This document shows, piece by piece, positions 46-63,920 of a stretch of 64,000 bases of DNA. The notes beneath the pieces were generated by a model. That model was not told the origin of the DNA and made no database searches. It saw nothing but the letters and a program-made list of their open reading frames with translations. Source of the stretch: Sipunculus nudus (lineage: Eukaryota; Annelida; Sipuncula; Golfingiida; Sipunculidae); contig CM049309.1 of NCBI GenBank assembly GCA_026874595.1, positions 53,356,079 to 53,420,078 on the forward strand. Direction: 5' to 3'. The stretch's first letter is position 1, and the number at the start of each line of letters is the position of its first letter. The translations under genes were made by a program, and so were the position numbers.

Positions 46-3000
46 CTGGAAAAATACTGATCTGTGAACCAGGTGCCTGAAGAAATACTGACAGGTGAGG
101 CAGATACAATGAGAAATACTGACAGGTGAGGCAGATACATGGAGAATTACTGACAGGTGAGGCAGATACCTGGAGAAATGCTGATGGGTGAGGCAGACAC
201 CTGGAGAAATACTGATTGGTGAGGTGAGGCAGACCTGGAGAAATACTGATGGGTGAGGCAGACACCTGGAGAAATCTTGAAATGTGAAATGGATATGGAG
301 AGAAATACAGACAGATGAGAGAGATACCTTGAGAAATACCGAGGGGTGAATTAGATACCTTGAGTATAACTGACAGGTGCTATAAATACATGGAGAAATA
401 CTGAGAGGTTAGTTGCTTACCTTTTGTAATACTGAGAGGTTAGAGACATATGTGGAGAAATACTATCATGAAAACTGTAAGAGTGAAAGGTAAGATATAT
501 ACTAGGTAATAAAAACTGGAGAATACTGACAGGTGATTCAAATACCTAGATAAGTACTGATGGGTGAAGCCGATGCTTTGAGATATAATGTAGGCATAGA
601 TATATTGAGATGTACACTCAGGTCATGCACAACTCAAGCAAACTGGTGACAAAAAGCAAGAGACACACTGATTCATAAACTGAAAAAAATTGTCAACCAC
701 TGCAAATTACTGGAGATATACCTGATATTACAGATAAGGCATCTTTGACATGGTCTAAATGATGCTAATATGAAAAATAAGAATAATCAATTAAGTAATG
801 AAAAAAAACACTAAAGTTCAATTCTTGCAAAAGCCCAAGGTTTCAACTGTCACTTTTCTTTCAAATTATATGAAAAAATGTATCTATGCATATAAAATTT
901 GCATTTGAAAAAAATTCAACAAATTCAAATTTATATTTATGTTAAATTATTGTAATACAATTTGTAAGGGCAAAAGTCTACCTGTATGGAATTTTTTTCT
1001 TCATGGCATCATTATATATACCAAGTATTGTGTCTTCATAGTTCATGTCTGGTTCTGTCTTGTGGTAATAATAAGCCCCTAAAATACAGAAACATTTTTG
1101 CAGATATTTATATCTACCCCGACAATATTCTGTACAAAAATAATTATCTGACATTATTCTGCACACAGTATATCACTGTCTCTGGTTCTGCAAGTACTCT
1201 ATACTCTGCATATTATCATCTCCAACTTGAAGAATATATTGCTTGTACATTACAGAAATGATTACAATGCAAGTGTAGATCATGAACTTATTTCATAACA
1301 CATTGCCATATGTGCTCAGGCCATGCAATGTCCTATAAAAAGTCAGGTTTAATATATTGGCAAGGATCATCAGTTTGCACACTAATTATAAAATGTCTTT
1401 ATTCATTTCATTGAAGGATTGATTAATACACCATGGCAGTTTGATAATTGATTCAATTACCCTCATTTGTGTAATTATGCAGGCAGAAATAACAAGTTGT
1501 AAACTTAATGATTGAAGACATGTAAATAAGTTTATATATGAGTGAAGACAGGATGGCTTACAGATTCTCCAATGGTTCGAATGTCTAATGGTGCCTCAAA
1601 CCATTGTTAGTGTAGAAACATATGTAGGCAATTGCCCTTTCTGTTGTCTGTGTAGTAACTTATAAAGGGTATTGTTCTTACCATTGTCTGTGTAGTAACC
1701 TATGTAAGCTATTGTCCTTACCATTGTCTGTGTAGTAACATATGTAGACTATTGTCCTTACCATTGTCTGTGTAGTCACCTATAAAGGCTATTGTCCTTA
1801 CCATTGTCTGTGTAGTCACCTATGTAGGCTACTGTTCTAACAATTCTCTGTGTAGTAACCTATGTAGGCTATTGCTCTTACCATTGTCTGTGTAGTAACC
1901 TATGTAGGGTATTGTTCTTACCATTGTCTGTGTAGTAACCTATGTAGGGTATTGTTCTTACCATTGTCTGTGTAGTAACCTATGTAGGGTATTGTTCTTA
2001 CCATTGTCTGTGTAGTAACCTATGTAGGCTATTGTTCTTACCATTGTCTGTGTAGTAACCTATGTAGGCTATTGTCCTTACCATTGTCTGTGTAGTAACC
2101 TATGTAGGCTATTGCTCTTACCATTGTCTGTGTAGTAACCTATGTAGGGTATTGTTCTTACCATTGTCTGTGTAGTAACCTATGTACGGTATTGTTCTTA
2201 CCATTGTCTGTGTAGTAACCTATGTAGGGTATTGTTCTTACCATTGTCTGTGTAGTAACCTATGTAGGCTATTGTCCTTACCATTGTCTGTGTAGTAACC
2301 TATGTAGGGTATTGTTCTTACCATTGTCTGTGTAGTAACCTATGTAGGCTATTGTCCTTACCATTGTCTGTGTAGTAACCTATGTAGGCTTTGTCCTTAC
2401 CATTGTCTGTGTAGTAACCTATGTAGGGTATTGTTCTTACCATTGTCTGTGTAGTCACCTATAAAGGCTATTGTCCTTCTGTGTAGTCACCTATGTAGGC
2501 TACTGTTCTAACAATTCTCTGTGTAGTAACCTATGTAGGCTATTGCTCTTACCATTGTCTGTGTAGTAACCTATGTAGGGTATTGTTCTTACCATTGTCT
2601 GTGTAGTAACCTATGTAGGGTATTGTTCTTACCATTGTCTGTGTAGTACCCTATGTAGGCTATTGTCCTTACCATTGTCTGTGTAGTAACCTATGTAGAC
2701 TATTGTCCTTACCATTGTCTGTGTAGTAACCTATAAAGGCTATTGTCCTTACCATTGTCTAACAATTCTCTGTGTAGTAACCTATGTAGGCTATTGTTCT
2801 TACCATTGTCTGTGTAGTAACCTATGTAGGGTATTGTTCTTACCATTGTCTGTGTAGTTACCTATATAGGGTATTGTTCTTACCATTGTCTGTGTAAGAA
2901 CCAATGTAGACTATTCTTCTTACCATTGTCTGTGTAGTAACCTATGTAAACAGTTGTCCTTACCATTGTCTGTGTTGTAACCTATAAAGGCTATTGTCCT

Positions 3001-6000
3001 TACCATTGTCTGTGTAGTAACCTATGTAGACTATTGTGCTTACCATTGTCTGTGTAGTAATCTATGTAAGCTATTGTTCTTACCATTGTCTGTGTAGTAA
3101 CCTATTTAGGGTATTGTTCTTACCATTGTCTGTGTAATATCCTATGTAGGCTATTGTCCTTACCATTGTCTGTGTAGTAACCTATATAGGGTATTGTTCT
3201 TACCATTGTCTGTGTAATAACCAATGTAGACTATTGTTCTTACCATTGTCTGTGTAGTAACCTATGTAAGCAGTTGTCCTTACCATTGTCTGTGTTGTAA
3301 CCTATAAAGGCTATTGTCCTTACCATTGTCTAACAATTCTCTGTGTAGTAACCTATGTAGGCTATTGCTCTTACCATTGTCTGTATAGTAACCTATGTAG
3401 GGTATTGTTCTTACCATTGTCTGTGCAATAACCAATGTAGACTATTGTTCTTACCATTGTCTGTGTAGAAACCTATGTAAGCAGTTGTCCTTACCATTGT
3501 CTGTGTAGTCACCTATGTAGGGTATTGTTCTTACCATTGTCTGTGTAGTAACCAATGTAGACTATTGTTCTTACCATTGTCTGTGTAATAACCAATGTAG
3601 ACTATTGTTCTTACCATTGTCTGTGTAGTAACCAATGTAGACTATTGTTCTTACCATTGTCTGTGTAGTAACCAATGTAGACTATTGTTCTTACCATTGT
3701 CTGTGTAATAACCAATGTAGACTATTGTTCTTACCATTGTCTGTGTAGTAACCTATGTAAGCAGTTGTCCTTACCATTGTCTGTGTAGTAACCCATGTAG
3801 GGTATTGTTCTTACCATTGTCTGTGAAGTAACCTATGTAGGGTATTGTTCTTACCATTGTCTGTGTAATAACCAATGTAGACTATTGTTCTTACCATTGT
3901 CTGTGTAGTAACCTATGTAAGCAGTTGTCCTTACCATTGTCTGTGTAGTAACCTATAAAGGCTATTGTCCTTACCATTGTCTAACAATTCTCTGTGTAGT
4001 AACCTATGTAGGCTATTGTTCTTACCATTGTCTGTGTAGTAACCTATGTAGGGTATTGTTCTTACCATTGTCTGTGTAGTAACCTATATAGGGTATTGTT
4101 CTTACCATTGTCTGTGTAATAACCAATGTAGACTATTCTTCTTACCATTGTCTGTGTAGTAACCTATGTTAGCAGTTGTCCTTACCATTGTCTGTGTAGT
4201 AACCTATAAAGGCTATTGTCCTTACCATTGTCTAACAATTCTCTGTGTAGTAACCTATGTAGGCTATTGTTCTTACCATTGTCTGTGTAGTAACCTATGT
4301 AGGGTATTGTTCTTACCATTGTCTGTGTAGTAACCTATATAGGGTATTGTTCTTACCATTGTCTGTGTAATAACCAATGTAGACTATTCTTCTTACCATT
4401 GTCTGTGTAGTAACCTATGTAAGCAGTTGTCCTTACCATTGTCTGTGTTGTAAACTATAAAGGCTATTGTCCTTACCATTGTCTGTGTAGTAACCTATGT
4501 AGACTATTGTGCTTACCATTGTCTGTGTAGTAACCTATGTAAGCTATTGTTCTTACCATTGTCTGTGTAGTAACCTATTTAGGGTATTGTTCTTACCATT
4601 GTCTGTGTAATAACCTATGTAAGCTATTGTCCTTGCCATTGTCTGTGTAGTAATCTATGTAGGCTTTGTCCTTACCATTGTCTGTGTATTGACCTATAGA
4701 GGCTATTGGTCTTACCATTGTCTGTGTAGTAACCTATATAGGGTATTGTTCTTACCATTGTCTGTGTAATAACCAATGTAGACTATTGTTCTTACCATTG
4801 TCTGTGTAGTAACCTATGTAAGCAGTTGTCCTTACCATTGTCTGTGTTGTAACCTATAAAGGCTATTGTCCTTACCATTGTCTAACAATTCTCTGTGTAG
4901 TAACCTATGTAGGCTATTGTTCTTACCATTGTCTGTGTAGTAACCTATGTATTTATTTATTATAATATTGTGAAGGGTGGCCTGTACCAGAATAAGAATT
5001 CTGTTATAAGCAGGGCCCTCTTCCAAGATATACAAGATATTATAAACAATGGAACATGATAATAAAAATACATTAAAGTACATGTACAATGCGAAATATA
5101 AAAGACATAATGAGACTGTAAACTCATTACAAAGGAATGATAATATCATAAAATTAATAAAAGGGACGGTACTAACAGCGGTAAGAGCAATGATTACATC
5201 TAAAACAATTTCGTGCTGTGATAAGATTATGACATCATTGTAAAATCGAGAAGTACAAACGTGATAATTTTTTAAAATGCTGCAAATTAGAAGCAAACTT
5301 AATGTGTCGAGGAAGGGAGTTCCATAGAGTACTGCCTGCATAAAAAGAGGTAGCCTTGAAGGCTTCAATACGCGGTTTCGGAAGGATACAGTTTTTGTTT
5401 TCGGTTAACCGCGTCGAATAATTATGAATGCCCTTCGCCATATGAAAATTCTTACATAAATATGAAGGGGCTAAATCATTAATGCATTTATAGGTTAAAA
5501 TAGATAGGAGGTACAAATATCGCTGATCAATTGTCATTAAGCCTATTTCTTTCACTAAATCTAAACTTCTTTGAGTTGGGTCGTAATTTTTTGTTATTAT
5601 CCTAGCTGCACGACACTGCATTCGTTGGATTGCGGCACGGAATGTGCTGGGACAGCTGCCCCATACTGTTAGGCTATAATCTATTGAGGGTTGAACAAAG
5701 GCGTGATATATAGTGACTAAAAACTTCTGTGGTAGAAATTTGCTGAGCCGATGTAAAAGTCCAATTTTGCAACATAGCTTTTTAAAAACGGTAGAAGTGT
5801 GAGATTTCCATGTGAGATGGGCGTCAATGATCAAGCCAAGGTGAGAAAATTCATCGACATTCGGGACAATATCTTTATCGATAATTATTTGTAATGAATT
5901 TGATTGTTTGCGTTGCTTGGAACTCACAAGCATAGTAGCTGATTTTGTGGCGTTTGCAATTAGTTTGTTTTTATTAAGCCATTTAGTAACTTGGTCTACA

Positions 6001-9000
6001 GCAGCCTGTAACTTATGTTGTGCTGATTCGCGATTGATGCCGTCTGCGTATAGCGTGATGTCGTCAGCATAAATCGAGCATTTTGCGTCTGTTACATTAT
6101 CGGGCAAGTCATTAAGATATAGTAAGAAAAGAATTGGTCCAAGTACAGTGCCTTGTGGTACACCTGTATCGATGGTTTTCACCTCAGAATTATAGTTATT
6201 GAAGCAGACAAACTGCTTTCGGTCGTATAAATAATTATAAAACCAGGTGTGCGAATTTCCATTTACGCCATACTGTTTTAATTTAGCCAATAATATATCG
6301 TGATTTAGGGAATCAAAACCTTTTTTAAGGTCGAGAAAGCATATGGAGTTTACATGTCCGCAGTTCATAACTGTCAGCCAATTATCAACTATTCTATGTA
6401 ATGCAGTTTGGGTAGAGTTGTTTGCAAGAAAGGCAGTTTGTTCAGGAGATATCAATCGTTTGTGGTTTAAGTAATTAAGGAGATGACGTTTAATGTGCTT
6501 CTCTAAGATTTTAATCCCATGGCTAGTGATCGAAATTGGCCGGTAATTGTTAGTATCAGAAAGTTTCCCTTTACCCTTATAAATGGGTACCACCCTTGCA
6601 CACTTCCAGTCAGGAGGAACTATTCCTGTACTGAGTGATAAGTTAAGAATATGTGTCAGCGATGGCGCTAAGATGACCGCGGCCTCTCCAAGTAAAACCC
6701 CGGCATATTGAGGACATCAATTCCATGTTTATTCTTAAATGCGACTAGAAGTTTCACGACATCCTGTTGGCTCATTTGAGGGATTGAAAACCGAGAATCA
6801 GTAAAATCAGGTTGGTCCTGCACAACATCTTTGGTAAATGCTTTAGTTAAAGTTTTTCCAACTGAGGCAAAGAAGTCATTCAGGTCATCCGCAGTTAGAT
6901 CTGGACTATCTTGACCCCGTCTAACTGGAATGATCACGTGTTTTAAAGACTGCCAAATCTCCTTGGGAGATTTTGATGACTGTGCCTTGTGTCTATAATA
7001 GGAACGTTTCAGTTGACGGATCATGCAAGTGACCCGATTACGTAACCGCCTGAACTGTGCCCACAGCTGCGGATCATTATTTGACACAGCAGATTTACGA
7101 ATGCGTTCTCGGTTTTATATTAGACGCTGGATATCAGGTGACATCCAGGGATTGTGTCTATTATTTCTAACTCTAAACTTTCTAAAAGGTGCGTGTTTAT
7201 TACATATGGTCAGAAATTCATCACGCCATAGATTCCAGGCCGAGATGACATCATTTACATCGGGAAGACAGTGAAATGTTAATGATGACTGAATGGACCG
7301 CTTGAAGGCAAGGGGATCAAATTTCTTAAAGGACCTAACTCTCACAAATTTGGTTCCTTTTTGGCAACTGCCTCCTGAGAGCCGGGTAAAAATAATATGA
7401 TGATCGCTAAGTGACCACGGAATAACGCCGGATGATGAGTGAATACCGGGTGTATTTGTAAAAATCAAATCTATCGTACTGGATGAGGTTGCGGTGACTC
7501 GAGTTGGGGAGGTTATAAGTTGATGAAGGTTGTATGATGTGGCCATATTCACCAACTCAACATTTATAGACGCTTTGGGGTTATTAAAATCAATATTAAA
7601 ATCGCCTATGATCACTGTATGAACATGTTTAGCCATAGCAAGGCTAATGTTATCGAAGAGAAGTTGTAAATAACTTTTGTCAGAGTGAGGCGGTCTATAT
7701 ATACACCCGATCAGAGAGTTACGTCTGTTCCATTGAATTTGGACCCAGATTACTTCTAGATGATCATTAGAAATAAAAGGACATACGGTAGATTGCAAGG
7801 AACATTGTACATAAATGGCAACACCTCCACCATGTCTATTTCGGTCTTTTCGGTAGAGAGTATACCCCGGGATTTCGATTTCATGGGTTGCGATACTATC
7901 GTCCAACCAAGTCTCAGTGAGACATATTACATGGACCGAACCAACCTTTAAGAGGAGCACTAATTCGTCGAACTTGGGAGGAAGACTTCTTACATTTAAG
8001 TGGATTATAGTTAGGCCATTCTTCTTTCGGATACACTGTAGGAGTGTTTCAATTGAGGTACCATCATCATGCGTGTTTGAGGGAGGCACGTTTTGATAAT
8101 CGGTAATGAACCCGTCATTGTTGTGACCAGGTAAGTAACTCTCGTTGTAAGGGGTACTGTTCATGTTAATTCTATTACTGCTTGCTTGTGAAAATTTTTA
8201 AGAGAGGTTGCGATTTTGATTACATCACATATATTCGAACGGAATGCCTTTGAGCCTTTCTTGTTTAGATGGAGGTTGTCAGATTTTAGTGTAAATGGAC
8301 CAAGGTTATCATTCATTACCAGAGTCCATCCGTTTTTTTCAGCGTAGATTTCTAGTGCGGCATTCAGAAGTCTTATTCTTTTAGAGTATATCTTAGAGGG
8401 TCTGCTAATCACTGTGCTAATTGTGACGTGCTTAATACTAGGATTCTGTTTTATAATTGGCACAATCTTACGGAACTTACGAATGCTAGTGTCTGCATTT
8501 TCTTTGCTTACATGATTTGTACCGATGTGTATGAGGAGATGGTCAGATTTGACTTGCTTGATCCTATCAATAGCATGATCAAAAGTAAACACACTTGAGT
8601 CCACATGCACATTGACTTTGGTTTCCTCGGAGAGGTCAGAAGAGTTCAAGTTCTTTGTCATTGAGTCCCCCAGGACAGTTACGTAAGAGGATTGGCAGGG
8701 CCTTGTTTTGTGTTGCTTGTGTTCGTGTGAAGGCTTGGGCGTAGAGTTCCCTGATTTCTTCTGAGCTCTGTTTACATGGCATGTTGCTGGGTTTACACTG
8801 GAGTCGTTGTGTACTTCTGTGGAAGCGTCTGTGCTAGGATACGCGTTTACGTCTCGGAAGCTGATAGTTGAGGCTGTTACAGACGAATCTTCACTCGTTG
8901 GATTTGATAGTGTGGAGTTTAGAAGAGTAATGGGTGTACTGGTATTCAGCGTAGTCTGTGTTGCAGTGGTCTTGATTTTTGGAGTTGAGGGTGGATCATT

Positions 9001-12000
9001 TACTGGTGATGACGAAAGGCAGTTTGTTGTTACGTTACATTTGCATTGACAGCATCGTGTTGAGTTCGATGGAGTGGTACGTTCCATTAAGGCATATTAT
9101 GGGTTTGAAGGGCTATGTTTATCTAAATTAGCGACTCAAGGCGGGTAGCAAGGAGGTTGATTTTGTGTGGATAGTTTCTGCACGTTATACACGTCCAGAT
9201 GCCAAGAGTTCCACTATCCTCTCCTACACATACTGGATGGAACCAGCTCATACAGATGCAGCATCGAACCATAGATTCATCAGCATACTTGCGATCATAT
9301 ACACAGTCCTTAGAGCAATATGATTCTTCTTGATCTTTGGTTTCAAGGTTGCGTTTTGATTGCTCTTTAAATGATGTTCTTTTTTTTGTATTACGTGTCT
9401 GACGTTCACATGTAGCTTTATCGGGTGTTAGTTTATCACAGTTTGATTTTGTGTTCACCTCATTGTATGAATTAGGAGAGCAATGGGTGTTATCATTCAG
9501 CTCAGCGTGTGAAATAGGGGAGCAATGGGTGTTATCATTCAGCTCAGCGTGTGACATTACACTAATATCCAGAGGTGATGGAGGCGACGTAGAGGCTGGC
9601 GATAATGGAGAGTCTTGAGGTATTGATGAGTTTATTTCAGGTAATGGACTCATTGAGTTGGAATTTTGAGGGGTCTTCTGGAAAAGATCCCCCAGGATGT
9701 TGTCTGTTGTTGTTGACCCTTTGTTCACAATTGAGGATGAAGCGATGACCGCAACACTGGTTTCACTCAATCTGGTTTGTACTCTGTTGTTTATACCATT
9801 AGATATGAATAACGCTTTGCATGAAAGTACAGGTTTTGGTATTGACGGGATTATATTGGCAAGTTCTGCCTGGATTGCTGACTTGCATTTTGTTTTCCTG
9901 AATTTGTTTAGGTCACACTTCTTCATATTATGAACAGTGGTATTCCAGTTATTTGTGACGTCACTGATGGCTTGCTCGAGTTTTTCTTTTGTCGGCACAG
10001 GCAAGCTATCGAGCAGCATGTTAGATTGTTGAATCAGTTTGTCAGACATGATTTCTTTTGCGTATACACTAATATGAGTTCGATAAAACGTCTTAGTGAC
10101 TGTTTATAGGAAGATGAGAGAACAGGACGCGGGGTTTGTTTACAGTTTCCAGGGGCGACGTCTTGAATGTTATGATAGATAAACTTACTTTTCCGTCGCT
10201 GAAATATCACTCAAACATCCCCACAACACAGTATAGGGGAATGCATGGAATATCACAGTTTGTCTTCTAAAACATGTGCTTGTAAAATCCGTTTAAGAGC
10301 GTAAAATCCATTAAAATCCAAGTAAAAATGTGAGCACTATAACTTCTCTGCTCGCTCCTTCACGCATGCGCATTTGTCATTGATTGTAGGGTATTGTTCT
10401 TACCATTGTCTGTGTAATAACCAATGTAGACTATTGTTCTTACCATTGTCTGTGTAGTAACCTATGTAAGCAGTTGTCCTTATCATTGTCTGTGTAGTAA
10501 CCTATAAAGGCTATTGTCCTTACCATTGTCTAACAATTCTCTGTGTAGTAACCTATGTAGGCTATTGTTCTTACCATTGTCTGTGAAGTAACCTATGTAG
10601 GGTATTGTTCTTACCATTGTCTGTGTAGTAACCTATATAGGGTATTCTTCTTACCATTGTCTGTATAATAACCAATGTAGACTATTGTTCTTACCATTGT
10701 CTGTGTAGTAACCTATGTAAGCAGTTGTCCTTACCATTGTCTGTGTAGTAACCTATAAAGGCTATTGTCCTTACCATTGTCTAACAATTCTCTGTGTAGT
10801 AACCTATGTAAGCTATTGTCCTTACCATTGTCTGTGCAGTAACCTATGTAGGGTATTGTTCTTACCATTGTCTGTGTAATAACCAATGTAGACTATTGTT
10901 CTTACCATTGTCTGTGTAGTAACCTATAAAGGCTATTGTCCTTACCATTGTCTAACAATTCTCTGTGTAGTAACCTATGTAGGCTATTGTCCTTACCAAT
11001 TTCTGGGTAGTCACCTATGTAGGCTACTGTTCTAACAATTCTCTGTGTAGTAACCTATGTATGCTATTGTTCTTACCATTGTCTGTGTAGTAACCTATGT
11101 AGGGTATTGTTCTTACCATTGTCTGTGTAGTTACCTATATAGGGTATTGTTCTTACCATTGTTTGTGTAATAACCAATGTAGACTATTCTTCTTACCATT
11201 GTCTGTGTAGTAACCTATGTAAGCAGTTGTCCTTACCATTGTCTGTGTTGTAACCTATAAAGGCTATTGTCCTTACCATTGTCTGTGTAGTAACCTATGT
11301 AGACTATTGTCATTACCATTGTCTATGTAGTAACCTATGTAAGCTATTGTTCTTACCATTGTCTGTGTAGTAACCTATTTAGGGTATTGTTCTTTCCATT
11401 GTCTGTGTAATAACCTATGTAAGCTATTGTCCTTACCATTGTCTGTGTAGTAACCTATGTAGGCTTTGTCCTTACCATTGTCTGTGTATTGACCTATAAA
11501 GGCTATTGTTCTTACCATTGTCTGTGTAGTAACCTATGTAGGGTATTGTTCTTACCATTGTCTGTGTAGTAACCTATATAGGGTATTGTTCTTACCATTG
11601 TCTGTGTAATAACCAATGTAGACTATTGTTCTTACCATTGTCTGTGTAGTAACCTATGTAAGCAGTTGTCCTTACCATTGTCTGTGTTGTAACCTATAAA
11701 GGCTATGGTCCTTACCATTGTCTGTGTATTGACCTATGTAGGCTATTGTTCTAACAATTCTCTGTGTAGTAACCTATGTAGGGTATTGTTCTTACCATTG
11801 TCTGTGTAGTACTCTATGTAAGCTATTGTCCTTACCATTGTCTGTGTAGTAACCTATGTAGGCTATTGTTCTTACCATTGTCTGTTTAGTAACCTATTTA
11901 GGGTATTGTTCTTACCACTGTCTGTGTAATAACCTATGAAAGCTATTGTCCTTACCATTGTCTGTGCAGTAACCTATGTAGGCTTTGTCCTTACCATTGT

Positions 12001-15000
12001 CTGTGTATTGACCTATAAAGGCTATTGTCCTTACCATTGTCTGTGTATTGACCTATGAAGGCTGTTGTCCTTACCATTGTCTGTATAGTAACCTATGTAA
12101 GCTATCATCTTTACCATTGTCTATGTAGTGACCTATGTAGGCTATTGTCCTTACTATTGTCTGTGTAATAACCTATGTAGGCTATTGTTCTTACCATTGT
12201 CTGTGTAGTAACCTATGTAGGCTATCGTTGGATCATGATCCTTCATGTGAGGATCCTTGTTGTACCAGAATCGCATCAGTTCTCCCCAGGCAGACATAGC
12301 CTACAATCACATGAATGTTGACATTCATACATGCAGGTCTGATACAAGACCCTCAACACTGGTCCAGGAATAGTTAAACTACAGTCTGTCCATCCAAGGG
12401 ATGCCCATTGGATTTTGGAAATATTTATGAAAACAAAACCTAGTATTTCTGTCCAGTATGTAACAAGAGCATTATGAGCACTTAAGCAAATAAGAATATG
12501 ACATTTGAATCAACCTGATTAAATGTATACTTTTTCTTCATAAATGACAGCACAGGATGGTCTCTTTTTAGCTGATTATGTACTGTATCAAATTTATGGT
12601 ACCAAGTACTACTATCAGCCAATCACTGTCTGCCAAATATGGCCTTGGCCATGTCCCTTCAATCAACATGTCATAATAAAAGCTATCTGTCTTCTCAGAT
12701 GACAGCCAGAGGAAAGGTAATTTTAATACTTGTATTATATATATAATTTTGTTTATTTTATTATGAATAATATACTCACTTGATTCAGCCCTCTGTCTCC
12801 ATAGAATACAATGGTTTCATACAAGAACCCTTTTGGAAGTGCGTTGACATTACCCATGATGCCCCAGTTGACAGTGTTCATCTTCTGGTCATGTGACATG
12901 GAGGCAGCCATGAATTGGTTGAATGGTGAGATGATGATCACATGACCAAGCTTGTCAAACAGAACCACAGGCCCACCCTCTAAACCATCAGTAAACTTCA
13001 AATCTGGCTTCCATCTGTGTAAATAATTCACATACTGTTCACCATTTTATTGATAGCCTTGTTCAATGTGTTTTTGTTATTTAGATGGTCCCCCAACATG
13101 TTATAAACACATGGATATAAACAAAAAGAAAAGGACAGGACAGGATATGGTGACCTCTGATCCTTAACTGTGAGATTTATTTTAGATTTTAGATAAATTC
13201 CTAAACTTTTTATATGCACATTACAGGTAGTATCTCTCTTTGCTTTTATTGTATAGTTATCAATTTTGTAAACAGTTACTATAGAGAGGGTTTGCTAAAT
13301 TTAATGGAAATTGTTATTACTTAATCATTTGTAACCATGTTAAAAATCTGACCAAATGAGGGGGCATTAATCTGATTAATCCTCTGAGCAGTAAAGGGCT
13401 GAAACATTCTGATAAATCTATTAAACTTAAGGATTGGTTGCAGGGGATCAATATGGGGGGGGGGGGTATATATCCCCCCCACTTTTTGGCAAGGGGGGAT
13501 GGTCAATGTAATCCCCCCCCCCCAATATTCAGTGAATAATATTTATATATTTCAAATTAAATATATAAATAAATAGAATTATAGACTTTGGTTCCATTTA
13601 TGAGTTTACCAAGAAATATTTATATCTAAATGGTTTAGAATAAACATATCCCTTTTTTTAAACCTTATGATATATATATTTGATATGTGTCACACAGACA
13701 ATAACAGGTATATATAAATATATATATATATAATACATATATTATATATATATATATGTATTAACATGTCTGTTTTATTCAAATTTTGACTACCATCCAT
13801 GCTTGTCACCCCCCCCCCCCCCGACCCATGCCTGTCAACCCCCCCCCCCTTGCGACCCCCCCCTTTCAATATTTAAAATCCCTGCCCCCCATAATTTTAT
13901 TACCCTTACTTCTCAGTTTAAAATAAAACCAATTTGTCAGGGGAATGATTATGACTAAGATTTCTATCAGATATTTAATTATAAAGTTATAAAAAAAACA
14001 GTCAAAATTCCTGGCAACATTTTTTTATAGCATCTGTATGACAGGAGGAAACACAATGGGACCACAACATGACTTTAAGCATATAAAATGAATAGTTGCT
14101 AATTTTCAGGAGTATTACATGAAAACAAAACACTGGAAAAATACTATTGTAAAAATGGAATATAAAAGATACTCACTGACCAATCACCTTGGAATAATCA
14201 CCAATGAAATTCCCCCCTAAAGCCAGGTAGCCAATAGCATTGTGAGAATCTTCAACATGGAATGATGGGAAGGCTGACACCACTTTGTTTGGATCACCAA
14301 CAGCTGTGTTCCTGGCATCTGCACCTTCAATCATCTGCAAAGGGGTGCACAATGTTTGTTTTACTTATATTTTGTTTATAATAATTTAATTACATTTTTC
14401 CATACTTTTAGAAAACAAGGTCTACAGGCCTAATGCAAACCTGTGCACAGTTTGGGAGTGTGAATGGAGTATTTCTGTTTAAATTAAATATTGATCCTCT
14501 TATGTCCTGCATATCTACCTTAGTCATTATGATTTCAGCAAAATGGACATTTCGGACCTGCAAGGTTCGGACTAGGACATTTTTAAACTAAACTAGGATG
14601 TATCAGTCAGGATTTTTTGGATATGTTCTTCTTTGCCAGGGTAGATTATTTGGACAGATGAACGGACAATTTGGTAGCATGGTTTCTGAGAAGAACATTT
14701 TTTAATGTGTTTTGGCTTCTTCCCTATAAAATTTTAGAAAATGCAGTTAGCCAAGAAATAAGCAAAATCCAATAGAATTTTTAGATGACAAATTTTTTGC
14801 AAAAAATTTGGTGATGCTAGCTCCTGAGAAAGCTATGATGCACGACGGACGATGGAAGACTGACGACACCACACCATTGCAAAAAATCTCAGAGATTCAC
14901 TATAAATGCAATCCCAGGTTTTTTCAAACAGTTGAAAGATATAGTTCCAATAGTTCTAATCTGGGCACTCTGTGTCTAGACCATGTGTCTAGATGTCTAG

Positions 15001-18000
15001 ACACTGTGTCTAGACGTCTAGACATTGTGTCTAGACAAGGCAGAGCCAGGTCAGTTGCCATGGTGATGTCTGGACCCCACCTGGTTGTACTGAGTGACCT
15101 CTTGATTTGGCTGCTGAAACGCGGCATGTTGTCAAATCTGTTTTCAAACACAGAAAGCCTTTTTTTCAATTGGCTACACTTCTTTTTTAAAGCTGCATTT
15201 ACCCAATCTATTCTTATAAAACTAACAGAACCCTACCATAGAATAATTCTTGTAAAGTTTAAACCAATGAGCTTAACAGTTTTATCAAAAAACAATGTAT
15301 AAGCTAGAAAAGTCTAAATTACATTTTCACTTGTGAAAAACAGATCAATGTGGGTGGCGCCACCAATACCTCAATTTCAGATATGACTTATATGACAAAC
15401 ATTGACATAAAATTTGGTGATGATAGCTCCAGCTGTTTCTAAGATTTTAATTTTAGTGTCCTTTTTTTGACAGATGACTAAATTCAACCTCCTGTAACTC
15501 AGCCACAAATCAACAAACTGGAACCATTGAACAAACTGGAGAGAGATTGTTCCAGGGAACATTTCTGTGAAATATTGGACAATTTGGCTGGACAGTTTCG
15601 GAGAAGAAGATTTTTAAAGGGTTTTAAGCTTTTTCTCTATAAAATCTAAAGTAATGCAGATACCCAAATATAAGCTCTAGGGCACCAAGTTTCACATGTG
15701 ACTAACTCTTACATGTAATTTGGAGCTGCTAGCTCTGAAGGTTTCTGACTTACAGCCCTGGACGGCAGACAGCCAGCCCTGGACGGCAGACGGACGATGC
15801 CACGCCATTGCATAAGCTTACAGGTTCACTAAAAAGACTGTCTGGATTAGTAATTTTTATCAAGGGGCAACATATCACTAACATGCAAACAATTTTTAAC
15901 ATACAATAAGATTGTAATGTATATATAACAGTTAGTAAATATAAGCTGAAGAAAGATGTAGGCTGTTTGGCCTACATTTATTTATATATTCTATTTATAA
16001 ACAAATACATAATATTCTACTGCAGGAAATGGACACTTTTAAACTGGTTGTATTACTTTTTATTTGACACAATTCTTTAATCTGTCATATGATTAAAACT
16101 GGTTGGTACTTTAATCTGTTCACCTGTTCTTTGTGCTACTTCCTTAAAATCAATTAAGCTTACAAGTAATATTGGCAAAGGGGAAAAAAACATGTTTTAT
16201 ACATTAGCAACTTGAAATGCACAAAATATTTAATTTATGACCTATTAACATGTGCTAACGGTGTAGAGATTGCATATTGACCTTTTAGACTGCAGGCCTT
16301 AACACCTACAAAATATGGAATGACATGTATGTTACATGAGGGAGGTCATGTGGATCATTTAAAAGTGATTCAACTTTAATTGGTAGACATGGCAGATCAA
16401 TAAAATATTGATTTGGAGTTTTCCTGCTCATTTAGATAAGACTGGAGTGCAGGTGTTATTTTGTGAGGCTGTTTGTGAATTGAACACTGCAACATATCAT
16501 GACTTCATCTTCCGTTAAATTAAATACCCCTCCTCAGAGCAGCAGACTCTCCCATTCTTATTCGCTGCTTGAGTCATGTATGTTTACAGCTTGAGATATG
16601 TTTTCATTTTTTTTTACAAACTTGATACATGAACTAATTTTACTTTCACTAACTTAATGCTGCCTTTTATTCTTATTTTGCTTTCAACAAAAATTTAATC
16701 TTTATAAAAAAAATAAAAAATGTATGGACTGATGGTCACTATACTAGTAAGTGGTGAACTGCAGAACTTATTTGTCTGGGTATTTACCTGTGAAAACACA
16801 GCAACTGACTGGAGTTTATAACGACGTATGGAGCAGCCAGCTGTTGCCTGATGTAGCGAGTACCCGTATGTGACCTTATTCCAGTCTCCCAGCTTATCTG
16901 CTCCCTCAGAGCGCTCTGGTGGTCCCTGCAGCTTCAGGGAGCCATCAGCAGTTGTCTGTAACTTACCATCATTCTGAAAGAAGGTGGCAGCACTGTTTAG
17001 CCAAACCTGACCATCAACAGTGATTTTGTAGCTCCCATCTGGATTTGTAACAACATCAAATCCTGGCTGTGTACTGAGCACAGCAGTACAGACTCCCGCC
17101 ACTGAAAGAAAGAGATAAAAAGGTCAGAAATAATCATAATAATTTAAACTTGCATAGTTATGGATTATCTAATTACTTATACATGTATGTATTATATAAA
17201 AGAGGAGTACACATTTTATAATGCACTGGAACTTATCCTTTCTTGTATGTTTTTTCTCTGCTTGCTCTAACACTCTACATATAGTCAGAAGGGCAGGGAA
17301 AAAACTTAATTCTCTGTGTGATAACATCCATAAACACTGCAGCCCTGTTTCTCCTTCAGGTATATTACCTGGGAATATTTTTACCACAATAAAGATACAC
17401 TGCTAAACTCTGAGTATCTATAAACCAACATGGTTATAATCACTCTATGGCAGTGGTAATTATAATGCCTTTCCAGCCATCTCAGACAGGCAAAATTTCA
17501 TTTTGTACCAATCTGCTGGAAAGGTGAACACCTAATTGTTTTCTTCATTAATAGATGATAAGAAGTAACATTACAACACTAAAAAAAAAGCTTTTAGAGG
17601 TGGTATTCAACCGACGCCCTATATTTCCATATAAAACTGGTCCATAATTTCTTATAAAAGAAATATATAATTTCTTCATAAAATGAGTCTGTGTTCCCAA
17701 ATAACTTCGGTATGTAACTGAGTATGACACGGTAGATGCGAGAACGGAGGACTTATTAAACTTATTATCTATGAACTTGCAGGGAGCTGCAGAATTAGCG
17801 GAGAGTTTTCCAATGAAATGTACATTGCAAAATATGGGCAGGAAGGTGTTAAAATACTCCATAAATTCTCCAGGTCTATGCCAATTTTGCGAGATTCTCT
17901 TAACCGATTCTATTCAACCGATGCCAGGTGCTGCTGTTTAGGCCGTCCTTAAAAAATTCTTCGTTGGGGTTAACCCGGCTAGTCGAGTATTTGGATCTCA

Positions 18001-20016
18001 GCTGGAACTTTTTTTGGACTAGTCTGCAATTTTTTTTTTGGTATGATCTGCCCCAAGCGCCCCATGTTCCCATAAAATCTGCCTTCATGTGCTAGAAAAA
18101 CAGCCCCTTTATAGACCTTACATTCTAGATGCTCTTAAATTCCATTATGAAAGATATTACCAGACGTTGCCGATCGTTAAATTTGATCCTTAAAATTAGA
18201 CCATGTCTTTATACGTGGAAGGATCGTTACACTTGTGCGCAAGAGGAAAATACCTGCCGGAGAAACGCAGGTACAGTTTCACAGATAATTGCAAATTTCT
18301 TTGATAATTGTATATATTTGTCTGAACCGATTAATAATTGATCATCAGTCAGTTTGCTCAAACCGATGATCGATTATGTAAAAGGAACTGACTCCCACCA
18401 CTATTACACAGTGTCCATCTGTTTGTCTGCCTTGGGTTAAAATCACTCATATCTCTGCAGTGGTTTGACTAATTCACCTGAATTTCCGCATGCGTATACA
18501 TCCTGGATAGCTTTCTTGATTTTATGACAGGTGGCGCCACCTACATTCATGTTCATGCTGCAGACATCCATGCTTATATCTCTGGACTGGTTCGACGTAT
18601 CTTCCTGAAAATTTGCATGTGTATAGATCTCACATAGCTCTTTATCATATGCAAAATTGGTGGGGCCATCTGCAACCATTTTTGCACAGCGTCCATCTGT
18701 TTGTCTGCTGTGGGATAAAATCACTCATATCTCGGCAGTGGTTTGACATATCTGCCTAAAATTTGCAGATTTATACATCCTGGACAGCTTTCTTGATTTT
18801 ATGACAGGTGGTGCCACCTACATTCTAGTTTACCCTGCAGAAATCCAAGCTCATATCTCTGGAACCATTTGACCGATTGGGCCAAAATATTGCATGTGTA
18901 TAGATCACTCATAGCTCTTTATCATACACAAAATTTGAGGGGCCACCTGCATTTTTGCACAGCATGGGTCTGTTTGTCTGCCATTGGCTAAAATCACTCA
19001 TATCTCAGTAGTGGTTTGACTTATGCAGACACCCATGCTAATATGCAACACACCTCACGCTATTTCCCCTTGCAACTCAATCCATGCCTCACTTACCTGT
19101 TCCACTATGATTTGGCAGATACACGTAGTCGCTTGTTGTCTACATGATTCTAGTTAAAGGTTGGGCTCAAAGGCAAACACATTTCCATTTTAGTTTAGCT
19201 GACAATGGATATGCTCATCACATAATTTGCAAATTAAGAAAGAAAACATGAATATTAACCCTGGACACAAAAAAATTAACCTGCTGTTTGAAACTCAAAG
19301 AATCCCTAGGTGAAAATGAATATCCATAAAATGAAATGCCCATTATACAATCATCTGAGAGATAATCACCTTTCTAATTTAGGCAGATTTTCTATAAAAT
19401 CTTAAGTCAAATACAAATCCTGTTTTTAACAATGATCTAGCAGCATTTATACACTATGGCTTCAAAAGGAGAAATGATTCAATTGTATTTTAAAATCGGA
19501 GTACTAAGAAGGACTACTCAACACAAACTCTGGTTTTGTTATAATTTTGCAATAAGAATAGGCAAACTTTATATATTTTATTGGGAACTGTGTAATTGAC
19601 TCAGTACTTGACAATAGATGCATTTAACTGACAGCGTGAGTTTCCATTTACTGATAGAAGGTAAATTTAAGGCACCGTGCCACGGGTACGGAATGAATCA
19701 TAGTTTAGACCCGGCGATATTAATATATAAACTACCACTATCAATCTGCATGAACATAAAACCCGAAAACAACACGTACAGATTTAGAGGCTAAACTGTG
19801 TCAAGTGGTACAGCTGAAATTTCAGTCCGCACTATACCGCTCCAACTTGTTTAAGACTTAAGCTTTTTTCACATTTTCAGCCGTCTGTAACACGGATCCA
19901 TATTTACTGATTTTATTGTCTGCTTGCCGGATTTAACGAGATTGCACAAACAGAAAGTTTCGCTTAAGCTTACCCCACAAGAACTGGAAGTACCGGACAG
20001 CCATCCGGCCCATCAT
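1..20016 (-). CDS. Secreted glycosidase-like protein, seven exons, 3' part outside window
   Basis: Spliced gene reconstructed by reading exons and matching intron phases: 20016-19974, 17101-16788, 14334-14177, 13014-12780, 12300-12195, 1078-982, 45-1 (partial), giving 998 coding bases (about 332 residues) without a stop. All introns are GT..AG. The N terminus looks like a signal peptide: basic start MMGRMAVR, hydrophobic core FQFLWVAGVCTAVLST. A beta-rich region follows (exons 2-4). The last exons read DPTIAYIGYYTDNG, AYYYHK and then IPYRYLQYDDWWYP. A strand ending in QYDDWW after a YTDNG segment resembles the barrel strands of alpha-galactosidase-type (GH27/GH36/GH31-like) TIM barrels, so a secreted or lysosomal glycoside hydrolase is my inference; I do not recognise the family with certainty. 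Two introns carry minisatellites built from the gene's own splice junctions. The exon structure is seen directly; the function is tentative. Confidence 0.8.
46..600. repeat. 31-bp minisatellite containing the exon 7 3' splice site
   Basis: About 17 diverged copies of a roughly 31-bp unit (plus strand core GAAATACTGACAGGTGAGGC followed by AGATACCTGGA). On the gene's strand the unit reads CAGTATTTCTCCAG|GTATCT, which matches the true exon 7 acceptor CAGTATTTTTCCAG|GTATTT. Only some copies (near 170, 200, 235 and 265) keep the CCAG|GT form; others carry CATT or CATG there. Divergence rises away from the exon. Confidence 0.8.
601..981. other. Intron 6 remainder
   Basis: AT-rich unique sequence between the 31-bp array and exon 6; no other gene or repeat recognised. 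Confidence 0.5.
982..1078 (-). CDS. Glycosidase-like gene, exon 6
   Basis: The acceptor TCTGTATTTTAG ends at 1079 and the donor ACAG|GTAGAC begins at 981. The 97 bases run from phase 1 to phase 2. It encodes AYYYHKTEPDMNYEDT and ILGIYNDAMKKKIPY. It lies between two introns that both contain splice-junction minisatellites, so its inclusion depends on two unusual junctions. Confidence 0.8.
1592..4951. repeat. 40-bp minisatellite in intron 5, left block (about 80 copies)
   Basis: Tandem 40-bp unit with plus-strand core TTACCATTGTCTGTGTAGTA. On the gene's strand this is TACTACACAGACAATG|GTAA, the end of exon 5 plus the 5' splice site. Nearly every copy keeps CAATGGTAAG. Variants include a 51-bp unit with an AACAATTCTCT insertion and CCTATAAAGG or CCAATGTAGAC sub-types in recurring order, showing higher-order repeats. 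Copies at the left edge (1592-1680) are the most degenerate. The right edge is cut by a LINE at 4952. Confidence 0.95.
5235..8164 (-). pseudogene. LINE ORF2 (endonuclease plus reverse transcriptase), two disabling lesions
   Basis: It starts at ATG 8164. The APE-type endonuclease spans 8164-7118 with HLNVRSL, CLTETWLDD, IGDFNIDF and LSDHHIIF motifs. An in-frame TAA at 7117-7115 interrupts it, but the same frame resumes with SNNDPQLWAQFRRLRNR. A frameshift near 6690-6720 then moves the reading into the frame of 6593-5235, which carries the reverse transcriptase: LDLKKGFDSLNHDILLAK, GVPQGTVLGPILFLLYLNDL, SIYADDITLYA (catalytic YADD at about 6061-6073) and a C-terminal LWNSLPRHIKF segment usual in this clade. 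The stop at 5235 is followed by the 3' UTR. With only two lesions in about 2.9 kb, the copy is recent. Confidence 0.9.
8161..9087 (-). CDS. LINE ORF1b with SGNH/GDSL hydrolase domain
   Basis: 308 codons starting in a TAATG context at 9089-9085. A short Cys cluster (CCQCKC) lies at the N terminus, then a low-complexity Thr/Ser stretch, then an SGNH hydrolase fold: VLGDSMTKN near residue 140 (catalytic Ser), LIHIGTNH near 183, and DNLHLNKKG near 265 (Asp and His). Esterase domains of this type are known in ORF1 of CR1-group LINEs. The stop overlaps the ORF2 start as ATGA (8164-8161), which suggests coupled re-initiation. It is in a different frame from ORF1a, so the two may originally have been one protein or two coupled ones. 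Confidence 0.8.
   Translation of the reverse strand: MERTTPSNSTRCCQCKCNVTTNCLSSSPVNDPPSTPKIKTTATQTTLNTSTPITLLNSTLSNPTSEDSSVTASTISFRDVNAYPSTDASTEVHNDSSVNPATCHVNRAQKKSGNSTPKPSHEHKQHKTRPCQSSYVTVLGDSMTKNLNSSDLSEETKVNVHVDSSVFTFDHAIDRIKQVKSDHLLIHIGTNHVSKENADTSIRKFRKIVPIIKQNPSIKHVTISTVISRPSKIYSKRIRLLNAALEIYAEKNGWTLVMNDNLGPFTLKSDNLHLNKKGSKAFRSNICDVIKIATSLKNFHKQAVIELT
9123..10049 (-). CDS. LINE ORF1a with C-terminal PHD-like zinc finger
   Basis: 308 codons from ATG 10049, stop TAG at 9125-9123. The N-terminal half is polar and Ser/Pro-rich; a near-duplicated 20-residue block containing SHAELNDNTHCSP occurs twice in tandem. Around residues 245-300 a cysteine/histidine array (CSKDC, CCIC, FHPVC, WTCITC) fits a PHD-like C4HC3 finger. 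Such fingers in CR1-type ORF1 are thought to act in nucleic-acid or chromatin binding. The TAG is followed in the same frame, 12 codons on, by a TAA overlapping the next ATG, so the TAG may be a late mutation. Confidence 0.8.
   Translation of the reverse strand: MSDKLIQQSNMLLDSLPVPTKEKLEQAISDVTNNWNTTVHNMKKCDLNKFRKTKCKSAIQAELANIIPSIPKPVLSCKALFISNGINNRVQTRLSETSVAVIASSSIVNKGSTTTDNILGDLFQKTPQNSNSMSPLPEINSSIPQDSPLSPASTSPPSPLDISVMSHAELNDNTHCSPISHAELNDNTHCSPNSYNEVNTKSNCDKLTPDKATCERQTRNTKKRTSFKEQSKRNLETKDQEESYCSKDCVYDRKYADESMVRCCICMSWFHPVCVGEDSGTLGIWTCITCRNYPHKINLLATRLESLI
10050..10384 (-). promoter_or_regulatory. LINE 5' UTR / internal promoter region
   Basis: Untranslated leader of the retrotransposon, richer in CpG than the flanking array. 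Its 5' end carries a GCATGCGC palindrome (10362-10372), one base off the NRF1-type consensus. A promoter role is inferred from its position; LINEs of this type transcribe from internal 5' promoters. Confidence 0.5.
10385..12225. repeat. 40-bp minisatellite in intron 5, right block (about 45 copies)
   Basis: Continuation of the same array after the LINE, in register: removing 4952-10384 and one copy of TGTA restores an intact unit. It has the same 40- and 51-bp unit types as the left block. The last copy runs into exon 5, where ATAGCCTACATAGGTTACTA is coding sequence. About 125-130 copies in both blocks together. Confidence 0.95.
12195..12300 (-). CDS. Glycosidase-like gene, exon 5 (its 3' end seeds the 40-bp array)
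   Basis: The acceptor GTGATTGTAG ends at 12301. Codons begin AMSAWGELMRFWYNKD and end TIAYIGYYTDN plus one base; the donor is AATG|GTAAGA at 12194. The phase fits exon 6 exactly, giving DNGAYYYHK. The last 31 coding bases and the first nine intron bases are the unit of the minisatellite that fills the intron; this exon holds the copy nearest to unique coding sequence. Confidence 0.8.
12780..13014 (-). CDS. Glycosidase-like gene, exon 4
   Basis: The acceptor TTACACAG ends at 13015 and the donor CAA|GTGAGT begins at 12779. It has one base plus 78 codons (phase 2 in, phase 0 out). It encodes DGLEGGPVVLFDKLGHVIII, then SPFNQFMAASMSHDQK and GFLYETIVFYGDRGLNQ. The strongly amphipathic and beta-strand pattern is compatible with a domain packed against a TIM barrel. 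Confidence 0.85.
13080..14176. other. Intron 3 with poly-C/G tracts and AT microsatellite
   Basis: No coding signal. Homopolymer G runs (13455-13466) and C runs (13513-13523, 13808-13822, 13840-13849) are interspersed with a TA-rich microsatellite near 13700-13765. Such tracts are prone to length change and assembly error. Confidence 0.7.
14177..14334 (-). CDS. Glycosidase-like gene, exon 3
   Basis: The acceptor TTTGCAG ends at 14335 and the donor CA|GTGAGT begins at 14176. It has 52 codons plus two bases (phase 0 in, phase 2 out), starting MIEGADARNTAVGDPNKVVS and ending GDYSKVIG. The 158-base exon has no stop and joins exon 4 in frame to give VIGQWKPDL. Confidence 0.85.
14640..15850. repeat. 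Two diverged copies of a dispersed repeat (intron 2)
   Basis: Segments 14660-14900 and 15570-15830 align to each other in the same orientation. Shared marks are GACAATTTGG, a CCCTATAAAATTTTAGAA or CTCTATAAAATCTAAAG box, GGTGATGCTAGCTCCTGA or GGAGCTGCTAGCTCTGAA, and a GACGGACGATG then CCATTGCA end. This GACGGACGAT-ended type is common in bivalve genomes as far as I know. Between them, 14970-15036 is a short array of TCTAGA-containing units. Confidence 0.65.
16788..17101 (-). CDS. Glycosidase-like gene, exon 2
   Basis: The acceptor TTTCTTTCAG precedes 17101 and the donor CAG|GTAAAT follows 16788. The 314 bases take up phase 1 and end in phase 0. The encoded stretch includes STQPGFDVVTNPDGSYKI and TVDGQVWLNSAATFF, a polar beta-rich mature N terminus after the signal peptide. 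Codon use is clearly protein-like against AT-rich flanks. Confidence 0.85.
18400..19030. repeat. About 275-bp tandem repeat, roughly 2.3 copies (intron 1)
   Basis: The phrase TAAAATCACTCATATCTC recurs near 18437, 18716 and 18989, preceded each time by CTGTTTGTCTGC. The intervening GATTTTATGACAGGTGG (18519, 18795) is likewise repeated. A unit of about 275 bp repeated in tandem with 10-20% divergence explains the short ORF in this stretch. Confidence 0.75.
19974..20016 (-). CDS. Glycosidase-like gene, exon 1 (start and signal peptide)
   Basis: Begins at ATG 20016-20014 (tandem ATGATG) and encodes 14 codons plus one base. The donor is G|GTAAGC at 19973. The final G joins TG from exon 2 to make a Val codon inside the hydrophobic core, so the signal peptide is split between exons 1 and 2. 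A short first coding exon with a phase 1 donor is common in secreted animal proteins. Confidence 0.75.
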
Positions 20017-36444: not shown

Positions 36445-36657
36445 ACTGTTTGGAGGCTATATATGATCTTGTGTGAAAGAGGTAGATAAAAGTACATCCG
36501 GCAATATGTCAACAAGGGAAGCCGGCTGGCATCAGGGGTTTGGGAAATCAATTTGTGTCAGGGAAAAAGTACAGTAGATGATCACATGTCATGCTTATTT
36601 AAGAAACCCACATTGTTTTCATGTCTACTTCTGAAGGCTGCATTAATCAGATCGTCA

Positions 36658-37042
36658 ATGGCTGCGTCGTTCTATCAGCTGACCCCGCTCAAGCTTGGAG
36701 CCGAGGTTCGCGGGGTGAAACTTTCTGAGGACGTACCCGCGGACGTTATTGAACAGATCCGACGTGACGTCACTAAACATCGAATCCTAGTGTTCCGTGA
36801 CCAGGGAGACATCAGTGGTGACCGGCAGGTGGAGATAGGTCGCTGGTTTGGGGAGCCTGAGTCCACTTTCTACAAGCATCACCGCTCCCCACATCCTGAC
36901 GTGTTCCGGGTGTCTAATGATGAGGAGGAGGGGTGTACCGGGGTCGGGAGGACCGGCTGGCACATTGATGGGTCCTTCCAACCCGCACCATTCAGTTATG
37001 CTCTCTATCATATAGTCCATGTACCAAAAAAAGGAGATACAG
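36658..37042 (+). CDS. Dioxygenase exon 1
   Basis: ATG 36658 has G at +4; the upstream in-frame ATG 36586 is an alternative. Carries the HxD iron ligands (codons at 36961 and 36967). The donor ACAG|GTAATT at 37043 leaves phase 1. Higher GC and CpG than the flanks, as expected of old coding sequence. Confidence 0.9.
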
Positions 37043-62779: not shown

Positions 62780-63920
62780 AGATGTGTCGGAACGACACGA
62801 ATGCCCCCGCCTGGGGCAACTTAGAAACATTTGTTAAATTTTGAAAAATTGTTAAGTTCAGGAGGTGTCATATGGTCAAAAGTAGGTCAACAAGGGCAAA
62901 ATGCAAACTCGATCTGTAACGGGTCATTATCAAGCAACACACCAAAAATCAGGCCAGTATCTGCAGGCATTGTGAAAAAAAGTCCATACATGTGCATTTT
63001 CCATAAAAAATTCTGTCTTTCATTAAATTTGTTATGTTTAGGAGCCGTAAAACAATCAAAAGTAGGTCAACCGGGACAAAACGCGAACTCGATCTGTAAC
63101 TGTCATTATCTGCCAACATATAAAAAATCAGGTTGGTATCTGCAGGCACTGAGGAAAAAAAGTCTGTACATATGCATTTGTTATGAAAATTTCTATTTTT
63201 CATGAAATTTTCTATGTTCAGGAGCAGTCAAATGGTCAAAAGTAGGTCAACTGGGACAAAACGTGAACTCGATCTGTAACTGATCATTATCTGCCCACAC
63301 ACCAAAAATCAGGCCCATATCTGCAGGCACTGTGAAAAAAGTCCATACATGTGCACTTTTTTATGAAATTTCTATGTTAGAGCACCGTCAAATGGTCAAA
63401 AGTAGGTCAACTGGGACAAAACGTGAACTCGATCTGTAACTGGTCATTATCTGCCCACACATCACAAATCAGGCCAATATCTGCAGGTATTGCGAAAAAA
63501 AGTCTGTACATATGTATTTGTCATGAAAAGTTATATTTTTCATGAAATTTTCTATGTTCAGGAGCTTCAAAAGTAGGTCAACTGGGATGAAACGCGAACT
63601 CGATCTGTAACTGGTCAATATCTGCCCACACACCAAAAATCAGGCCAATATCTGCAGGCATTGCAAAAAAGTCCGTACATGTGTATTTGTCATGAAAATT
63701 TCTATTTTTCATGAAATTTTCTAAGGAGCCTTTAAACGGTCAAAAAGTAGGTCAACCGGGACGAAACGTGAACTCGTTCTGTAACTGGTCATTATCTGCC
63801 CACACACCAAAAATCAGGCCAATATCTCCAAGCATTGCGAAAAAAGTCCGTACAACTGTTTGATTTCGGAATGACGGACATGGGTTAAACTATATGCCCT
63901 TTGTGGCGGGGGCATAAAAA
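62780..63920. mobile_element. Tandem-repeat-bearing non-autonomous element (bivalve type)
   Basis: Left end GATGTGTCGGAACGACACGA (hairpin GTGTCG/CGACAC) then ATGCCCCCGCC; right end GGCGGGGGCATAAAA, so ATGCCCCCGCC is inverted at the two ends. Between lie six copies of a 160-180-bp unit with core GTCAAAAGTAGGTCAACTGG, CTCGATCTGTAACTGGTCAT and CAAAAATCAGGCC (starts near 62873, 63053, 63233, 63393, 63567, 63738). Mobile elements with GCCCCC hairpin ends and internal repeats of this size are familiar in bivalves, often classed as Helitron-like; the class here is inferred. Confidence 0.75.

Follow-up and report, generated by a model that had tools for sequence, protein, structure and literature searches.

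How is the end of an exon recognised when the splice junction that marks it has been repeated in tandem about 125 times? The question is raised by a 64,000-nt window (the whole stretch of DNA analysed; contig CM049309.1, positions 53,356,079 to 53,420,078, assembly GCA_026874595.1) from the annelid Sipunculus nudus, in which intron 5 of a conserved animal gene on the minus strand contains a minisatellite made of the gene's own 5′ splice site. We consider it likely that minisatellites in this genome were seeded on splice junctions, 5′ or 3′ and in unrelated genes, and that they are tolerated since the exon-proximal site would win. The donor array had been described in an earlier note made from the letters of the window; two further features go beyond that description, namely a mirror-image acceptor array at 42-572 and the recurrence of such arrays elsewhere in the genome.

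Each unit, 40 bp in length, combines the 31 final bases of exon 5 and nine intron bases (GTAAGAACA), arranged head to tail. Wrap-around parsing gave 130 pieces, with 46 in a first block (12225-10386, minus strand), with the true exon end in copy 1 (12225-12186), and 84 in a second block (4952-1560, minus strand), the last of which are decayed. Five pieces (three broken, and the last two decayed) were excluded before counting. Among the 125 well-aligned units left, which fall into 64 distinct sequences, GT was retained in 121, GTAAG in 115 and ATG|GTAAG in 112. The unit, its phase, its coordinates, its copy number and the near-universal retention of the donor were thus as the earlier note had described them. 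Some units are 51 bp long owing to an 11-bp insert resembling an ATT|GTTAG variant, and the array shows a higher-order period of six units. The sequence CAATGGTAAG was found exactly 113 times on the minus strand of the window, between 12199 and 1686, and never on the plus strand. When the 20-mer CAATGGTAAGAACAATAGCC was searched in the 1.43-Gb genome with at most one mismatch, all 81 matches fell within this array and the reversed control gave none, so the array is not a chance product, and a dispersed or mobile origin of the unit was rejected. The array lies in intron 5 as claimed, but it does not fill it: about 480 bp upstream of exon 6 are outside the array, and a long interspersed nuclear element (LINE, a non-long-terminal-repeat retrotransposon) lies inside one unit at 4953-10385 on the minus strand and splits the array. 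This element, recognised by RVT_1, endonuclease and weak GDSL matches, is about 5.4 kb long and in sense orientation relative to the gene; its endonuclease and reverse transcriptase region is spread over several frames, its 3′ end reads AATAAATAAA, and a likely TACA target duplication was seen by eye.

Whether exon 5 truly ends at copy 1 was judged from the gene and its relatives. Joined exons 2 to 6, all on the minus strand, give an open frame of 302 residues with AG/GT edges: exon 2 (AGVCTAVLSTQPGF...) at 16788-17101, exon 3 at 14177-14334, exon 4 at 12780-13014, exon 5 at 12195-12300, ending in IAYIGYYTDN plus G, and exon 6 (GAYYYHKTEPDMNYEDTILGIYNDAMKKKIPYR) at 982-1078. These were placed by their edges, in-frame joins and homologues, and exon 5 by its in-frame join, homologues and paralogues. 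Exon 7 begins with (R)YLQYDDWWYPIKGR at 1-45 and is cut by the window edge; homologue P0001 has KYLQYDSWWYP there. In total, 24 homologues were found, the best named ones being from the gastropods Candidula (42 percent) and Biomphalaria (37 percent), and in all 15 of the 24 that were taken into the alignment the place of the exon 5/6 junction (TDN|GAYYY) is ungapped. A search of the worm's own genome with the gene gave 15 matches, which were grouped into six genes (this gene and five paralogues, A to F, on contigs C4, C5, C9 and C10). The same glycine codon is split by an intron at this place in all six, the donors of genes B, C and F being read by eye, and because both the intron place and the split codon are shared, the donor at 12195/12194, in the copy adjoining unique coding sequence as the earlier note had it, is supported by descent. 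By BLAST edges, intron 5 is about 11.1 kb long here and about 0.27-2.4 kb in the five paralogues, in which no array was found at the equivalent junction. The gene product had no Pfam match at E 0.1, no solved structure was found for homologue P0001, and an Rfam search of the window returned nothing reaching the gathering thresholds.

The consequences of using any other copy were followed through the reading frame. All 126 later donors parsed run into a stop, and the frame through exons 2 to 6 and the 45 visible bases of exon 7 is open only with copy 1. The expected frame disruption was found for every later donor parsed, although by eye the stop reached earliest is the TAG of copy 2, a copy with the donor ATA|GTAAG, and not the TAA that had been named. 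As for strength, the later donors had been called equivalent to the true one, which holds for most of them: the U1 pairing energy calculated with RNAduplex was at least as good as that of the true donor in 114 of the 126. Twelve are weaker, including copies 2 and 3 at -5.0 and -5.3 kcal/mol, compared with -8.0 kcal/mol for the true donor. The chance that both of these are weak under random placement is 0.008, a coincidence that was noticed post hoc and that array-edge decay could explain.

A mirror image of this arrangement was found at the next intron of the same gene. At 42-572 on the minus strand, the 3′ splice site of exon 7 (CTGCCTCACCTGTCAGTATTTCTCCAG|GTAT) is repeated as a 31-bp unit in about 17 copies, of which the outer are weak; the unit consists of 27 intron bases (a pyrimidine stretch and AG) followed by GTAT. 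Copy 1 (72-42) carries the true acceptor, and AG is retained in 10 of the roughly 17 copies. Over 42-410, the wrap score was 420, compared with at most 23 in 50 shuffles. When the nine AG-bearing decoy acceptors were tested, eight reached a stop. Beyond the window, downstream in the gene, the acceptor of the exon that starts with DWLDF is repeated as a 44-bp unit in ten copies, four of which keep AG. Beyond the donor of that exon lies a 19-bp tandem array (L009 2531-2803), whose nearest row is 25 bp away and in which no exon sequence was seen.

Arrays at exon edges were also found in the paralogues. Gene C has six parsed copies of a 70-bp donor unit (GT in 6/6) and four of a 65-bp acceptor unit (AG in 3/4); gene E has a 64-bp unit in 40 copies, all 40 with TCACTCAG|GT; gene F has three copies with TCACTCAG|GT in 3/3; and gene B has about two copies of 70 bp and shorter pieces. 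Since each pair shares its junction and unit, the arrays of B and C, and those of E and F, are probably not independent. At the DWLDF exon or its equivalent, four of the six genes (B, C, E and F) bear a donor array, and gene A bears an acceptor array. An array was scored as junction-crossing when it lay within 12 bases of an exon edge (taken from BLAST edges) and overlapped the exon by at least 3 bases; matches within arrays, one weak gene C match and an array internal to the LINE were removed, the first two by hand, and the two blocks of the main array were counted once. The spans of the six genes contained 23 arrays with periods of 10-100, of which 8 crossed one of 106 junctions; uniformly placed seeds would give 0.82 (P = 4e-7). 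Once the given array and the genes B and F are set aside, 5 of the remaining 16 crossed (0.49 expected, P = 6.5e-5), and with periods up to 500 in this reduced set, 5 of 20 (1.21 expected, P = 0.0035). When periods of 20-100 and at least 2.5 copies were required, 7 of 10 arrays crossed a junction, compared with 0.41 expected.

Recurrence outside the family was then assessed with words and with a control family. The donor word CAGGTAAG in triple at a spacing of 23-53 gave 822 matches in the whole genome, compared with 179 for the reversed word. In contig C1 and contig C2 to 37.22 Mb, the range reached by both ordered listings, 14 loci were counted by eye for the donor word and 2 for the reversed word (P = 0.002, or P = 0.01 if the 12:9 ratio of the single words is applied); the single words are about equal, with 12 donor and 9 reversed in 228 kb. 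Thirteen of the 14 loci were examined, and in nine of them an evident exon ends in the first copy, as judged by acceptor, open frame, Pfam and eye (L089 and L091 by Pfam and eye; a scripted exon search proposed no acceptor for these two or for L086). Pfam matches in the nine were above curated cut-offs for FancD2 (8.7e-7) and 3HCDH_N (1.5e-5), below them for ABC_membrane (3.4e-5), DOCK (1e-4) and PH (0.016), and absent for four of the nine. Among the other four arrays, L086 is probable, L079 and L082 run off the stretch examined, and L081 has a 300-base open frame before the array and no clear exon. For the chaperonins, 49 of 63 matches were used with 250-bp flanks (14 were dropped as intron-less or nearly so), and four arrays with a period of at least 10 were found by Tandem Repeats Finder (TRF; minimum score 50, then 40). 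One is an acceptor array, TTTCAG|GTATAACCTC, at an exon end in a CCT gene, and another, in stretch L050, lies inside a match containing stop codons. Four longer chaperonin stretches, containing 19 exons in all, had no array with a period of 20-100 and at least 2.5 copies other than that of the CCT gene.

Three observations were made alongside these searches. Nine GroEL-like stop-free frames of 547 aa with identical scores were found on contigs C61, C62, C66, C72, C73, C75, C89 (twice) and C99, as if bacterial DNA, from a symbiont or a contaminant, were present in the assembly. A satellite of 160-180 bp, the same by eye, occurs at 62876-63854 of the window and in chaperonin introns (L076 4154-5418 and L078 2501-3887). 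Likewise, a satellite of 277-280 bp, again the same by eye, occurs upstream of exon 2 (18407-19024) and in paralogue stretches (L033 3720-5036 and L034 5974-7087).

Several results weigh against the seeding of minisatellites on junctions and the choice of the exon-proximal site. For competing strong donors in test systems, use of the intron-proximal one has been reported. From copy 6 of the exon 7 decoy acceptors, no stop is reached within the 45 visible bases of that exon. Only one of about 98 chaperonin exon ends bears an array, a lower rate than in the family, where 8 of 106 junctions do (Fisher P = 0.036). Triple matches of the acceptor word TTTTGCAG number 150 and those of its reversed control 115, so an excess of acceptor arrays was not demonstrated. 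When 60-bp segments were compared, a nearby copy was found at 7 of the 106 junctions and at 22 of the 360 intron points chosen at random, the junction arrays themselves having been left out of the random-point control; there was no enrichment, and long arrays weigh more in this test because it counts every base that an array covers. Finally, total differences are lower in the donor columns of the main array (0.019 per unit-column) than in the exonic columns (0.081), which selection could also explain.

The results for the chaperonins, the acceptor word and the 60-bp segments are what would be expected if these were ordinary intronic minisatellites unrelated to splicing, a few of which overlap an exon edge by chance. 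This explanation is unlikely in view of the junction-crossing excess, which persists in both reduced sets, and of the genome-wide excess of the triple donor word when single words are about equal. The scarcity of differences in donor columns would instead suit arrays that are functional and kept by selection, recruiting extra U1 and so shielding a long intron from premature polyadenylation or reinforcing exon recognition. Such a role would also agree with the many later donors that are as strong as the true one, with the 40 intact donors of gene E and with the 3′ end of the sense LINE held by the intron. The lower totals, however, come from older, shared changes. Singletons, the freshest mutations, number 7 in the eight donor columns from -3 to +5 (0.88 per column) and 13 in the 24 exonic columns from -31 to -8 (0.54), so that selection on the donor within the array was not supported; moreover, the five paralogues manage the same intron place with no array found there. 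We regard a functional role as quite unlikely. Because singletons are not fewer in the donor columns than elsewhere, we read the donor copies as probably retained by descent in a young array, perhaps under weak selection as well.

A very unlikely alternative is that the array produces alternative splicing, with several first copies used to give a family of mRNAs, or with splicing inside the array adding in-frame bits. Two downstream repeat units of a minisatellite in the human gene IFI6 are said, in an excerpt of PMC4526556, to serve as donors, and three of the four AGs in the unit, ending at columns 4, 13 and 25, share the phase of the donor. Against this, every later donor parsed reaches a stop, the nearest rivals of the true donor (copies 2 and 3) are weakened, subject to the reservation about array edges made above, and no pyrimidine tract is evident by eye at the AGs of the unit.

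The preferred explanation, seeding on junctions with exon-proximal choice, would proceed as follows. The minisatellite would have started when the exon 5/intron 5 junction underwent a short tandem duplication, and would have grown by slippage and unequal exchange, as the higher-order period of six units suggests. The exon-proximal copy, which is also the first transcribed, would act as the donor, and the remaining copies would leave with the intron. Pairing of U1 with the first nascent donor, together with exon definition, may favour copy 1, and rare use of a later copy would lead to a premature stop and probably to nonsense-mediated decay (NMD). In human cells, an excerpt of PMC8316553 reports, the nascent 5′ splice site stays paired with U1 small nuclear RNA tethered to RNA polymerase II, and the first copy made would be favoured for this reason. 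Since the exon-proximal acceptor copy is made last, exon definition would have to serve donor and acceptor arrays alike. NMD would clear mistakes. Junction-crossing duplications would then be nearly neutral and could grow. A wider proposal is put forward tentatively, as possible rather than probable: that a mutational or selective process acting on junctions makes exon edges a main birthplace of gene-linked minisatellites genome-wide, with introns carrying up to about 125 near-equivalent donors and exon-proximal choice letting the arrays grow. Extrapolation from contig C1 suggests about 140 loci genome-wide for one exact donor word.

In the same window, at 36490-37065 on the plus strand, an exon of a TauD-like dioxygenase was observed; among the 120 of 193 matches listed, the best are 74-78 percent identical.

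How these arrays stand in relation to described systems bears on how new they are. The closest precedent is the minisatellite in human IFI6 (6-16, G1P3), which Turri et al. (1995; NAR 23:1854) reportedly described as giving multiple splice donors, and which is said to have a 12-bp unit in some 26 copies at the exon end. Tandem donor-bearing units starting at a coding exon end are shared with IFI6; here, in contrast, a 40-bp unit is present about 125 times, use of a later donor ends in a stop, and further arrays of this kind are found at exon edges elsewhere, both 5′ and 3′. Introner elements are dispersed introns with their own splice sites, found as near-identical copies in many genes; the 40-bp unit was rejected as one, all 81 genome matches of its 20-mer being in this array. 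In recursive splicing, an intron is removed stepwise through AG|GT sites.

The other comparisons draw on excerpts of the published texts. Duan et al. (2024; PMC10809524) describe a tandem array of dual-specific (AGGT) splice sites in UBC, report that human introns measuring a multiple of the surrounding repeat are in 8.4-fold excess, and argue that repeats with splice sites are tolerated since they can be removed by splicing. Tandem repeats carrying splice sites, and tolerance through splicing out, are common to both systems, whereas the UBC units are 228-nt in-frame coding units whose sites are used as donor, acceptor or neither, and here a 40-bp unit is the junction itself. The main array reads CAATG|GTAAG, that is, TG|GT and not AGGT, although the arrays of exon 7, of the chaperonin gene and of paralogues C and E do have AGGT at their junctions. 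A unit that is a multiple of 3, kept or removed in frame, was likewise not found at 40, 31, 44, 65, 70 and 64 bp, and in the main array the later donors run into stops; the TRF period of the chaperonin array, 60, is a multiple of 3. The IFI6 minisatellite of 1995 and the UBC array of 2024, as excerpted (PMC10809524), overturn the earlier note's suggestion, made for an amplification of this scale, that no case had been described. In a potato RNA-dependent RNA polymerase (RdRp) gene, a tandem duplication spanning a boundary gave rise to an intron (Ma et al., 2016; PMC4974935); a duplication over the intron-exon boundary carrying the 3′ splice site is shared, but there one duplication made a new intron, and here amplification was repeated within an existing one. 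The intronic variable number tandem repeat VNTR6-1 of TERT, of 38 bp and tens of copies, is said to affect splicing with NMD (PMC11830802); its action is described there as running through G-quadruplexes, and its unit is not described in the excerpt as a splice site. Two further reports, of a 150-bp block present once or twice where an intron begins (PMC3045353) and of exon duplications with minisatellite-like repeats in a metallothionein gene (PMC12783039), were set aside as precedents on the excerpts. By titles and abstracts, no description of a genome-wide class of splice-junction minisatellites was recognised among the open-licence papers searched. The present case departs from these precedents in its unit, its copy number, its frame and its many loci in one genome.

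Most work on the choice among equal splice sites has used artificial constructs with few copies. Here, natural genes carry from a few to 125 near-identical donors or acceptors, and cDNA could show directly whether the first-transcribed, the exon-proximal or the strongest site wins. If junctions are indeed a favoured birthplace of minisatellites, splicing would be linked to the mutation process and introns would have a route for growth, and annotation may misplace the ends of such exons.

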